34,439 nucleotides of DNA from Butyrivibrio sp. (lineage in GTDB: Bacteria > Bacillota > Clostridia > Lachnospirales > Lachnospiraceae), in contig JAILFT010000108.1 of the NCBI GenBank assembly GCA_024697425.1, positions 1 through 34,439 on the forward strand, written 5' to 3'. The position numbers and the translations under genes were made by a program. Within the stretch, counting starts at the first letter, position 1. Each line of letters starts with the position of its first letter. A model generated the notes under the pieces. That model was given only the letters and a program-made list of their open reading frames with translations, made no database searches and was not told the origin of the DNA. Below, piece after piece: positions 10,335-15,596 of this stretch.

Positions 10335-11231
10335 TTATACGTGCAGGTGCTTTCTTACAGTTATGAAACTTCCGAAGAAACCAATGCCGATACCGATGAT
10401 CAGCGAAATAGGAATCAGGTTGTTATAAACCGTCTCTACAGGCAGGAAATTCAGCAGTGAACTGAGCATTGTGAATCTGCTTGCCACATAGGCGATAACA
10501 TGGGTGTAAACAAAGTAGATAATGATCAGCGGGATGATGGATCCTATAAGGCCGATCAGAATACCTTCAACCACAAACGGGGCACGGACAAAAAAGTCTG
10601 TGGCTCCGATATACTTCATGATATTGATCTCATCCTTTCTTACGGCAATACCCATGGTTACGGTATTGCTGATAAGGAATACGGATACCAGCAAAAGAAC
10701 TATGATGATGCCGGCAGATATGTAAGCTATCAGGAGATTGAGTCCGCTCAAAGTAGTAGCTGTTACCTCGGAGCGGTTTACTTCTCTGACAACCGTGATG
10801 CTCTCTATGTAGGAAACCAGTGCCGGCTGCATGGATACGTCATTCAGATAAATCTGAAGGTTTGCTGACTCCGCAAGGGGATTCTCCGTAAATCCGTCGG
10901 CATATTCTCCAAGGTACTCCTCCTTGAAGCCTTCCCATGCCTCATCGGCTGAGACGTAAACTATCTCTCTTACTTCAGGTCTTTTTTCCAGGTCGCTCTT
11001 TACTGCCAGGATCTGCTCCTCGGTTACTCCCTCGTTGAAGAATACTGTTACGGAAACGCCTTCCTCGGCGGTCTTAACTACGTTCTGGAAATTGGTGATT
11101 ATTGAATAAAACAGTCCGAACAAAAACAGACAGGCGGTGATGGTGGCGATGGATGCCAGTGTATACCATTTATTTCTGCCTAAATTCTTAAATCCCTGTC
11201 CAATGGTGTAAAAGAAACTACTAATCCTCAT
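10335..11231 (-). CDS. ftsX: Cell division protein FtsX
   Basis: Four TM layout, N-terminal GQGFKNLGRNKWYTLASIATI, downstream of and overlapping ftsE. Confidence 0.93.
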   Translation of the reverse strand: MRISSFFYTIGQGFKNLGRNKWYTLASIATITACLFLFGLFYSIITNFQNVVKTAEEGVSVTVFFNEGVTEEQILAVKSDLEKRPEVREIVYVSADEAWEGFKEEYLGEYADGFTENPLAESANLQIYLNDVSMQPALVSYIESITVVREVNRSEVTATTLSGLNLLIAYISAGIIIVLLLVSVFLISNTVTMGIAVRKDEINIMKYIGATDFFVRAPFVVEGILIGLIGSIIPLIIIYFVYTHVIAYVASRFTMLSSLLNFLPVETVYNNLIPISLIIGIGIGFFGSFITVRKHLHV

Positions 11232-11961
11232 CGATGTACATACCCTCTTCTTCGTCTTCTATGATGACGCCCTTCTTCATGGTGATAACACGTTTCTTCA
11301 TGGCGTTAACGATCTCTCTGTTGTGGGTTACCACGATGACCGTCGTGCCGTTCTCGTTTATCTGCTCCATGAGCTTCATGATCTCCCATGAATTATTGGG
11401 ATCCAGGTTACCCGTGGGCTCATCAGCCAGCAGAATAGTGGGCTTGTTAACAAGGGCCCTGGCAAGGGCAACTCTCTGCTGTTCACCTCCGGAAAGCTGA
11501 TTTATCTTGTTTTTGTACTTGCCGGCCAGATTAACCGTGGCCAGTATTGATGGAACGTTTCGCTTGATCTCTCTTGTGGGAGTCTGCACAATGCGCTGTG
11601 CAAAAGCAACGTTCTCGTAGACATTTCTATCCTTGAGAAGTCTGAAGTCCTGGAACACAATGCCCAGATTTCTTCTGAACTTGGGAATCTTGCTGTGCTT
11701 GATCCTCTTTAGGTTGTAGCCGAGGACCGTTATCTCGCCGTCTGTGGGAACCAGTTCCCTAAGAAGCAGTTTGATCAGGGTTGATTTGCCGGAGCCGCTG
11801 TCGCCCACAATGAAAACAAATTCACCCCTTTTGATATGGAGCGTCACACCGTTTAAAGCCGGCGCTCCGGTCGAATATGATTTGGTCACATTCTCCAGCG
11901 TTATGATCTCATCGCTGGGAATCTGCCTGCTTGTCCTTCTTCTCCTGTATCCTCTTTCCAT
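11221..11961 (-). CDS. ftsE: Cell division ATP-binding protein FtsE
   Basis: GDSGSGKSTLIK, LSGGEQQRVALARALV, LLADEPTGNLDP. Start placed at MERGYRRRR (RBS GAGGAG). The ORF-track extension to 12039 runs into a structured intergenic element. Confidence 0.93.
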   Translation of the reverse strand: MERGYRRRRTSRQIPSDEIITLENVTKSYSTGAPALNGVTLHIKRGEFVFIVGDSGSGKSTLIKLLLRELVPTDGEITVLGYNLKRIKHSKIPKFRRNLGIVFQDFRLLKDRNVYENVAFAQRIVQTPTREIKRNVPSILATVNLAGKYKNKINQLSGGEQQRVALARALVNKPTILLADEPTGNLDPNNSWEIMKLMEQINENGTTVIVVTHNREIVNAMKKRVITMKKGVIIEDEEEGMYIDED

Positions 11962-11980
11962 AATTCTCCTCTTGTTGCAG

Positions 11981-12124
11981 GTGATATACGGATCGCTCCG
12001 CTTAGCGTTCGCAATCCTGCATACATTCGGATTCCACACTATCGTGCTCCATCCTCATGTATGTTCGGTCTTCAAGGTCACATTCAAGCATGCGTGTGAA
12101 TGTGACTTTGAATCCCTATATCAC
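11981..12124. repeat. Structured intergenic element E1 (multi-hairpin closed by a long-range stem)
   Basis: Outer arms GTGATATACGGAT (11981-11993) / ATCCCTATATCAC (12112-12124), 12/13. Inner hairpins CATACAT/ATGTATG (12020-12063) and TTCAAGGTCACATTCA/TGAATGTGACTTTGAA (12071-12112). Confidence 0.65.
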
Positions 12125-12128
12125 TCAC

Positions 12129-13211
12129 TTATGTGAACCTCTCCATGTACTTCATATATCTTACAACCATAAGTGCGATTTTAAAAGTAATGGCATCGTC
12201 GAACACTCTAAGGTCAAGTCCGGTGCTCTTCTGGAGCTTGTCCAGTCTGTACACAAGAGTATTTCTGTGGATAAAGAGCTGTCTTGAAGTCTCCGATACA
12301 TTCAAGCTGTTCTCAAAGAACTTGTCGATGGTGGTAAGAGTCTCCTGATCAAACTCGTCGGGATTCCTTCCCCCAAAGATCTCCTTGATGAACATCTTGC
12401 AAAGAGGGATGGGAAGCTGATAGATAAGTCTTCCTATACCCAGCTCGCTGTAGCAGATGACCTTTCTCTCGTCAAAAAAGATCTTGCCGACATCCAGAGC
12501 CATCTTGGCCTCCTTGTAGGAGCGGCTCACTTCCTTGATCTCGGAAACCACTGTGCCATATGCAATCCTGACTCCCGTCAGGCCCTCTTTTTCCAGATTC
12601 TGCAGGATATCCTCGGCAACTCTGGTGATCTCGCTGTTCTTGCCAAAGTCGCTTACATCCTTGACAACTATAACATTGTCCTCGTCAACCTCTGTGACAA
12701 AGTCTGTTCCGTTGCCGATGCAGGTCCTTGTGATCTCAAGGGCATTGCTGTCCCTGCCGCTGGCGCACTCAATGATCATGGCCACTCTCTTGGCATCACT
12801 CTGGATATGAAGTTTCTTGGCTCTGCTGTAGATATCTACCAGAAGCAGATTGTCCAGAAGGAGGTTCTTGATAAAGTTATCCTTGTCAAATCGCTCCTTG
12901 TAGGCCACAAGAAGGCTCTGTATCTGATAGGCTATCATCTTGCCAAGCATGTAGTTATTGTCGCCGCTGCCGGTGCAGATAAGGATATACTCCAGCTGCT
13001 GCTCGTCGTATATCTTGAAATACTGATAACCCTGGATCTCCTGTGAATCAGCAGGAGATTCCACAAAATCTCTGGCCACGGAAGCTACGTTGCCAATGTC
13101 GTTGGCAGTGGAAGCAACCTCCTTGCCGTCAGTATCCAGCACGCAAAGATCCACATGTGCTATGTTCTTGAGTCCGTCGATTGTGTTCTGCAAAATCTGA
13201 TTCGATATCAT
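12129..13211 (-). CDS. PucR/CdaR-family transcriptional regulator (C-terminal HTH)
   Basis: C-terminal LNVSETSRQLFIHRNTLVYRLDKLQKSTGLDLRVFDDAITFKIAL matches the PucR-type HTH. N-terminal sensory region. Confidence 0.85.
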   Translation of the reverse strand: MISNQILQNTIDGLKNIAHVDLCVLDTDGKEVASTANDIGNVASVARDFVESPADSQEIQGYQYFKIYDEQQLEYILICTGSGDNNYMLGKMIAYQIQSLLVAYKERFDKDNFIKNLLLDNLLLVDIYSRAKKLHIQSDAKRVAMIIECASGRDSNALEITRTCIGNGTDFVTEVDEDNVIVVKDVSDFGKNSEITRVAEDILQNLEKEGLTGVRIAYGTVVSEIKEVSRSYKEAKMALDVGKIFFDERKVICYSELGIGRLIYQLPIPLCKMFIKEIFGGRNPDEFDQETLTTIDKFFENSLNVSETSRQLFIHRNTLVYRLDKLQKSTGLDLRVFDDAITFKIALMVVRYMKYMERFT

Positions 13212-13765: not shown

Positions 13766-14599
13766 TCAGATCTTTACTATGGAATCGGACTTTATCTCGA
13801 TCCTGCCTTCCTTCAGCAGCCTTCCCACAGCTCTTTTGAACTCGTTCTTGCTCATGCCGGTCTTCTCCCTTATAAGCTCGGGAGCAGCCTTGTCATTAAA
13901 GGGAAGCTTGCCGCCGCCATTCTCAATAAGCTCCATGAGAGCCTTTGCATCGGTATCCATCTGAATATAAGCCTTCTCTCTTATGCTGAGGTTCAGCTTG
14001 CCGTCTTCCTTGACCGATACCACTCTTGCGGATACGGTGTCTCCGATTCTGATATCCCCGTAGATCTCCTTCTTGGGGATAAGTCCCGAATAAATATCAT
14101 CAACAGCCACAAAAGCACCAAAGTTGCCGCTCATCTCGTATACGGTACCTGTGACCCTGTCATCCTTCTTGTAAGGACTGTTCTGGGAAAGATACGGATA
14201 TACATTCATGGTAACGCAAAGACGGTTGCTCTTGTCAATGTAGAGGGCACAGAGCACCTCCTCACCGGGGCTTACCTTCCTGGTCTGCTGCTTGAAGGGT
14301 AAAAGAAGATCCTTCTCCAGCCCCCAGTCCATGAACGCGCCGATCCTGCCTGTATCCTTGACCTTGAGCATCCTCACATCGCCAAGTATTATTCTGGGCT
14401 CATTGGTGGTGGCGATCAGCCTGTCATCGGAATCCTTGTAGATAAAGACTTCGATGCTGCTGCCTATGTCTGTTCCCGCAGGTACCTGCTTGCCGGGAAG
14501 CAGCACCTTTTCCTCGTCGCCCTGCTTCTCAGAGAGGTAAACTCCGAATTCAACCTTTTTTACTACTGTAAGTGTCTGTTTTTCTCCTAATCTGATCAT
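13766..14599 (-). CDS. S1 RNA-binding domain protein, CvfB-like
   Basis: S1 repeats (GRIGAFMDWGLEKDLLLPFKQQ; GNFGAFVAVDDIYSGLIPKKE) and C-terminal winged-helix-like FKRAVGRLLKEGRIEI. Confidence 0.85.
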   Translation of the reverse strand: MIRLGEKQTLTVVKKVEFGVYLSEKQGDEEKVLLPGKQVPAGTDIGSSIEVFIYKDSDDRLIATTNEPRIILGDVRMLKVKDTGRIGAFMDWGLEKDLLLPFKQQTRKVSPGEEVLCALYIDKSNRLCVTMNVYPYLSQNSPYKKDDRVTGTVYEMSGNFGAFVAVDDIYSGLIPKKEIYGDIRIGDTVSARVVSVKEDGKLNLSIREKAYIQMDTDAKALMELIENGGGKLPFNDKAAPELIREKTGMSKNEFKRAVGRLLKEGRIEIKSDSIVKI

Positions 14600-15409: not shown

Positions 15410-15420
15410 GTAGGTCCTTT

Positions 15421-15463
15421 CTGCATGCAAGCATGCACAGACATGTTTCTGCATGGCTCTGCC
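15421..15463. repeat. 43 bp direct repeat, copy 1 (partial duplicate of E2)
   Basis: ctgcatgcaagcatgcacagacatgtttctgcatggctctgcc, matching 15545-15587 with one substitution. Confidence 0.85.
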
Positions 15464-15469
15464 TGTCGC

Positions 15470-15596
15470 CCGCGTTATGGCAGACGCAAACTCGAAAGCT
15501 TCGCTTTCTCGTTCGCGTAGCTCGCCATATAGAAACATATCTGTCTGCATGCAAGCATGCACAGACACGTTTCTGCATGGCTCTGCCATAACGCGG
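15470..15596. repeat. Structured intergenic element E2 (three-way-junction-like)
   Basis: Perfect 15 bp outer stem CCGCGTTATGGCAGA (15470-15484) / TCTGCCATAACGCGG (15582-15596). Inner hairpins ACGC..GAAAGC-ttc-GCTTTC..GCGT and AGAAAC..TGTCTGCATGC-aa-GCATGC-ac-AGACA-c-GTTTCT. Confidence 0.75.

Follow-up and report, generated by a model that had tools for sequence, protein, structure and literature searches.

Among the described repeats with which the present element can be compared, ERIC-type repeats are hairpin-forming sequences of roughly the same size that lie in transcribed intergenic regions. In E. coli, REP elements located within 15 nt of a stop codon have been reported to lower translation (PMC12306157). 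The closest described family is the Clostridiales-1 RNA (Rfam RF01699), which, in the portion of the original paper available to us, is presented as a probable RNA that is not cis-regulatory and that occurs in Clostridiales and in human gut samples (Weinberg et al., 2010; PMC2864571); the same portion makes no mention of mobility, of terminal repeats with target-site duplications, or of a position at stop codons. In our literature search this was the only paper to treat the family, and none was found that assigns it a function, while a search on repeats of Butyrivibrio returned nothing relevant.

The window, a stretch of 34,439 nucleotides from the draft genome of a Butyrivibrio sp. (contig JAILFT010000108.1), holds two copies of this family, here called E1 and E2. 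E1 is a real element and a member of RF01699, scoring 80.1 bits on the minus strand over model positions 1-166, where the gathering score for membership is 48 (cmscan, Rfam 15). The match spans exactly 11981-12124, where an earlier note on this DNA had placed a multi-hairpin element. Its minus-strand fold reaches -65.5 kcal/mol (z = -7.9 against shuffles), and fold and Rfam alignment together give the complete layout of the family, in which a closing helix, P1, encloses three internal hairpins, P2, P3 and P4. The features are as follows, in the order in which the minus strand is read for the genes and E1, with E2 last.

12129..13211, minus strand: PucR-type regulator gene, upstream of E1 (Pfam HTH_30 and GGDEF_2)
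11981..12124, minus strand: E1, Clostridiales-1 (RF01699), of the tail-less stop-codon lineage (cmscan, fold, tree)
12117..12124, minus strand: 5' strand of P1, GTGATATA (fold and Rfam alignment)
12067..12116, minus strand: P2, a long hairpin with variable arms and the conserved tip GCATGCTTG (fold)
12020..12063, minus strand: P3, a compound hairpin with conserved internal loops (fold and Rfam alignment)
11990..12017, minus strand: P4, a hairpin bearing the motif common to E1 and E2 (fold and pattern search)
11981..11988, minus strand: 3' strand of P1, TATATCAC (fold and Rfam alignment)
11966..11972, minus strand: AGAGGAG, probably the ftsE ribosome-binding site, in the gap between E1 and the ATG (sequence reading)
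11221..11961, minus strand: ftsE (ABC_tran), downstream of E1 and followed by ftsX (FtsX domains)
15475..15591, minus strand: E2, shortened and P3-less relative in RF01699, following the terminator of tRNA-Gln (cmscan)

The RNA strand of E1, to which the earlier note had assigned no strand, is the minus strand, in sense with both of its neighbours. The stop codon of the pucR-like gene (12129-12131) is followed after 4 nt by the start of the element, whose end lies 19 nt before the ATG of ftsE (11961). P1 consists here of the common sequence GTGATATA/TATATCAC, with the pucR-like stop 4 nt outside it. A consensus scan found neither a promoter nor a terminator at E1, although other promoter types can escape such a scan. 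In Butyrivibrio sp. FCS014, where the PucR-type protein is identical, the same site holds the same element (109 bits), and the P2 tip of E1 is 8 nt shorter than the one found there.

The compound hairpin described in the earlier note at 12020-12063 is P3 in the fold, and the two motifs that the note saw in both elements are real, GCTYCGCTT..CGTTCGC being the conserved P4 hairpin and CAAGCATGC the conserved tip of P2. The outer stem of 12/13 bp has the complementarity described, but both the fold and Rfam assign only its outer 8 bp to P1, and P2 and P4 compete for the inner GGAT/ATCC. Between E1 and E2, a minus-strand gene at 13766-14599 encodes a CvfB-type S1-domain RNA-binding protein.

As a member of the family, E2 is weak and shortened (52.3 bits, model positions 1-166; cmscan), and its minus-strand fold gives z = -7.5 against shuffles. 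It does not sit on a stop codon and is preceded by a terminator-like site at 15632-15605 that belongs to tRNA-Gln. The view that E1 and E2 share the same architecture holds only in part, as E2 lacks P3; their assignment to one element family is borne out, since both score above the gathering threshold and the genome holds 21 such copies. A P3-less subtype (AGCAGAGCCATG...CGAGTTTGYGTCTGC) comprises E2 (L020, C158:15475-15591) and one other copy of the same genome (L021, C114:6753-6876), and both sit behind a T-run resembling the end of a terminator. A hairpin arm of E2 of about 43 nt (15545-15587) recurs almost exactly at 15420-15463, just downstream on the minus strand, as a tandem partial copy that precedes an acyl-ACP thioesterase gene.

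The 21 copies above the gathering score lie in a 3.03-Mb draft of 232 contigs. At the level of motifs, the P4 pattern (up to 3 mismatches) occurs 12 times in this genome as opposed to once for a reversed control, so that the shared motifs exceed background and the first refuting check named in the earlier note does not refute its reading. RF01699 was found in all 37 genomes of the genus that were searched, this one included, with 1-32 copies each, and at least one copy was found in 65 of 120 genera of the wider family and in 2 of the 24 genera that were sampled outside this family but within its order. Three-copy head-to-tail tandem arrays were seen in two other genera (L462, L468 and L447, G126:C5:256720-257222; G133:C4:52186-52702). 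The draft itself carries two RNase P RNA genes of unequal length (353 and 480 nt, on contigs C116 and C107), and because of this difference contig C107, on which 3 of the 21 copies lie, may belong to a different strain. RNase P RNAs of 470-481 nt occur in some Butyrivibrio as opposed to about 350 nt in others (L347, L348, L353, L355), and the extra 120-130 nt or so gave no RF01699 match where scanned.

Evidence for mobility comes from relatives that exceed the Rfam model in length. Near-identical copies in four other Lachnospiraceae genomes continue for about 30 nt beyond the model, as far as CCTTTTGACCCCTACATC. This sequence repeats the 5' end GATRCCAGGGTCAAAAGG imperfectly in inverted orientation, and the total comes to 183-212 bp with terminal inverted repeats of about 18 bp. 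The flanking direct repeats are exactly 7 bp in 23 of the 35 tailed copies with a scored repeat, and one copy splits the tnpA of an IS200/605-type element, the site being empty in an intact relative. The RF01699 body of these other Lachnospiraceae lies inside a mobile element. Tailed copies also exist in Butyrivibrio, with duplications of 7-8 bp and mixed orientation; most copies of this genus are without the end piece that bears the 3' repeat. In a tree of 163 copies, a tail-less lineage of 66 copies from 18 genomes is recovered with a support of 0.986. In 60 of these copies the upstream stop codon falls within -13 to +10 nt of the 5' end, in sense and typically between genes of an operon, and none is tailed; the rest of the tree (97 copies) contains 18 at stops and 39 with tails. 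A direct repeat of at least 6 bp was found around none of the 66 tail-less copies, and the 3' terminal repeat and the target-site duplication by which a MITE is recognized are both absent from E1 and from this lineage; the route by which the tail-less copies spread is one that we infer.

No mobilizing enzyme for RF01699 elements was found among the Y1_Tnp loci and the 20 regions searched. A RAYT/Y1 transposase was considered and rejected, as Y1_Tnp is missing from two genomes rich in copies and occurs in genomes with few; only one of 20 Y1_Tnp loci scanned has a neighbouring RF01699 element, which is the copy that splits tnpA. An autonomous parent element was looked for as well, and no transposase lay between matching ends in 20 regions from three genomes (G102, G174, G066). 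Elements of about 36-70 bp that contain little beyond the two inverted repeats were also seen (L432:852-920, L433:575-610, L437:1436-1471), and two open reading frames near these repeats (L427 from 776; L433 5311-5994) share the N-terminal sequence LPPDxYGLLRTLCSRN, perhaps a repeat-derived coding sequence.

The position of the copies relative to genes is far from uniform. Among 119 copies that were placed (21 from this genome and 98 from relatives), 92 lie between two genes that are both on the strand of the element. In 72 of these 92 the upstream stop codon falls within -13 to +10 nt of the first base of the element, where an even spread over the gap would give 17.6 within 10 nt, although single cases may be wrong because a simple gene caller was used; none of the 92 comes to within 10 nt of the start codon downstream. 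In this genome the flanking genes are classic operon pairs, such as rplL|rpoB, atpE|atpF, frr|uppS, thyA|folA and gyrB|gyrA-type, together with fliE|fliF, rseP|ispG, rmlB|rmlA and thiolase|crotonase, named by eye from the protein sequences (the pucR-like|ftsE pair by Pfam). The remaining copies lie elsewhere, several of them directly after terminator T-runs, as E2 does after tRNA-Gln. Tail-less copies begin at the stop codon of the first gene and commonly leave 20-90 nt ahead of the start of the next, a gap that often contains a ribosome-binding site. The same habit is found for tail-less copies of five further genera, for example with a P1 that starts TAAGCCC or TGATCAC, where the stop of the gene is the first codon of the helix.

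The closing helix follows the end of the host gene. In stop-proximal copies, P1 is paired in 92-100% of cases at its seven innermost positions, as opposed to 19-34% when the partner is slid; the match fades over positions 8 to 13, beyond which it is at background. The stop codon lies wholly inside P1 in 37 of 78 such copies, 14 of these with TAA or TAG. The 5' strand of the helix is host sequence that is already present in empty sites. For example, rseP ends in cgaggTAAT in G004 and G031, where the site is empty, and the filled site of G000 carries ATTACCTCG on the 3' side. At atpE, the last codons and stop differ among four species and the 3' strand differs to match, with cagTAACA paired to TGTTACTG, ctacaaTAA to TTATTGTAG and, in two species, cagTGATA to TATCACTG; for gyrB in G016, gacgtaTAA is paired to TTATACGTC. 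The 3' strand of P1 thus matches the host gene end species by species at atpE and gyrB. At the pucR-ftsE site itself, gcgatacta pairs with TAGTATCGC in G026, and this is also seen in the remnant of G027.

Selection may maintain such a matching strand, or the strand may be a product of template switching, a process that has been proposed to create and repair hairpins (PMC8794818). In the latter case, the gene end would be copied as its reverse complement and would replace the tail, and matched P1 stems could arise without selection as a mutational by-product. This fits the composition of the stems, in which the inner eight positions hold 903 Watson-Crick pairs, 4 G-T and 4 A-C, counted without favouring G-T in stem finding, and it fits the gradual fading of the match to 13 nt. 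It leaves the sense placement on stop codons unexplained, and the 92-100% inner pairing that persists after divergence suggests upkeep. We regard this origin of the match as a serious possibility that falls short of an even chance.

Evidence at the level of RNA comes from wobble pairs. With one conserved A-C mismatch set aside, isolated G-U pairs outnumber isolated A-C mismatches on the annotated strand by 46 to 10 (p = 1e-6, a value that overstates independence because the copies are related). This excess fits and supports selection on the annotated strand as RNA, to which a mutational strand bias could add. With that mismatch retained the ratio is 46:51, as for a DNA-level palindrome without selection on RNA; this candidate was rejected, as most of the A-C cells trace to that single conserved position at the foot of P2. 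G-U pairs make up 1.8% in the RF01699 copies and are rarer than in RNase P RNA of the same genus (9.7%).

Comparison of orthologous sites in relatives, for pucR-ftsE and eight other sites of this genome, revealed empty sites, full copies, internal deletions, remnants and tandem amplification, and the element-sized presence and absence sought by the earlier note is therefore seen. A profile search over 127 site-by-species cases gave 15 full copies, 5 partial copies and 107 without a match, the last figure being an upper bound since the search misses short remnants visible by eye. Eighteen upstream genes have the same site filled in between two and four species. Taken together with the remnants and internal deletions, the 107 cases without a match indicate that there is no strong selection to keep the element at most sites. 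These data, the tandem partial copies and the clear mobile relatives are what would be expected of a neutral or selfish repeat without function that survives only where it is harmless, just after stops, and then decays. Random survival in gaps does not predict, however, a stop codon at the element edge in 72 of 92 copies with none at the next start, nor 60 of 66 tail-less copies in sense, nor a wobble excess on one strand, and we consider this explanation somewhat unlikely.

Starting from what is established, namely family membership, copy number, mobility of the tailed relatives, presence and absence at orthologous sites, position and orientation at stop codons and species-specific complementarity of P1, the most likely role of E1 would be that of an intercistronic mRNA structure linked to translation termination. 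In this proposal, E1 would be transcribed within a pucR-like-ftsEX mRNA and would fold directly behind the pucR-like stop codon. As P1 of many copies takes in the final codons of the upstream gene together with its stop, a ribosome reaching the stop would have to open it, and a stable intercistronic structure would open and close with translation termination. Terminating ribosomes that open the element may affect the 3' end of the upstream message, the coupling to the next gene, or both, and the structure may in this way separate or rebalance expression of the two neighbours, an action that has been reported for REP elements close to stop codons in E. coli. Against this termination-linked reading for E1 stands the position of its own stop outside P1. 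We lean modestly towards the broader statement that E1 is an RF01699 repeat that is, or derives from, a non-autonomous mobile element, and belongs to a stop-codon lineage acting locally on operon neighbours; the interpretation in the earlier note is, as a whole, partly supported. A bolder version, in which Clostridiales-1 homes to stop codons in sense and rebuilds P1 from the last codons of its host to yield a per-gene switch opened by terminating ribosomes, is speculative and on balance improbable.

Two further explanations fare worse than local action on operon neighbours. The Rfam type label ('Gene; sRNA') would make E1 an independent, multi-copy, trans-acting sRNA gene, in keeping with the conservation of structure and of unpaired positions and with the scoring of the family as RNA and not cis-regulatory in the available part of its description (PMC2864571). 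With no promoter or terminator seen at E1 in the consensus scan, a beginning only 4 nt after a stop codon, a sense position inside operons and a high turnover, this is very improbable. An ftsE-specific cis-regulator, such as a ligand- or protein-responsive leader, is scarcely credible, as 26 of 30 ftsE sites are without a profile match and the same element occurs in high copy number ahead of unrelated genes, even though several species carry a full copy at ftsE.

Mobility, and placement at stop codons with a host-matched closing helix, are strongly supported here and were not found in the literature searched. These findings suggest a partly transposable nature for an orphan Rfam 'sRNA' family, which would account for its uneven copy numbers, and they provide a clean natural case in which the stem of a repeat includes the stop codon of its host and tracks host sequence across species. 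Two questions are thereby opened to test: whether repeats located between operon genes serve to set protein ratios, as at rplL|rpoB and atpE|atpF, and whether RNA-like covariation can arise from template switching of DNA.

As compared with the known systems, ERIC-type repeats belong to other hosts, and we know of no P1-like helix that they share with a host gene. With MITEs, the tailed relatives have in common their size of 183-212 bp, terminal inverted repeats of about 18 bp, duplications of mostly 7 bp and near-identical copies, whereas E1 and the tail-less lineage differ in having neither 3' terminal repeat nor duplications, and no transposase lay between matching ends in the 20 regions. 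The Clostridiales-1 RNA is the family to which E1 and E2 belong by score, and E1 resembles it in its P1-P4 layout and in its host group. REP/BIME elements of enterobacteria are likewise palindromic intergenic repeats, many of them near stop codons, a feature present in 72 of the 92 copies here; the RF01699 elements, for which no link to a Y1/RAYT transposase was found, differ in being larger, in their three hairpins and sense orientation, and in a helix that includes the end of the gene.
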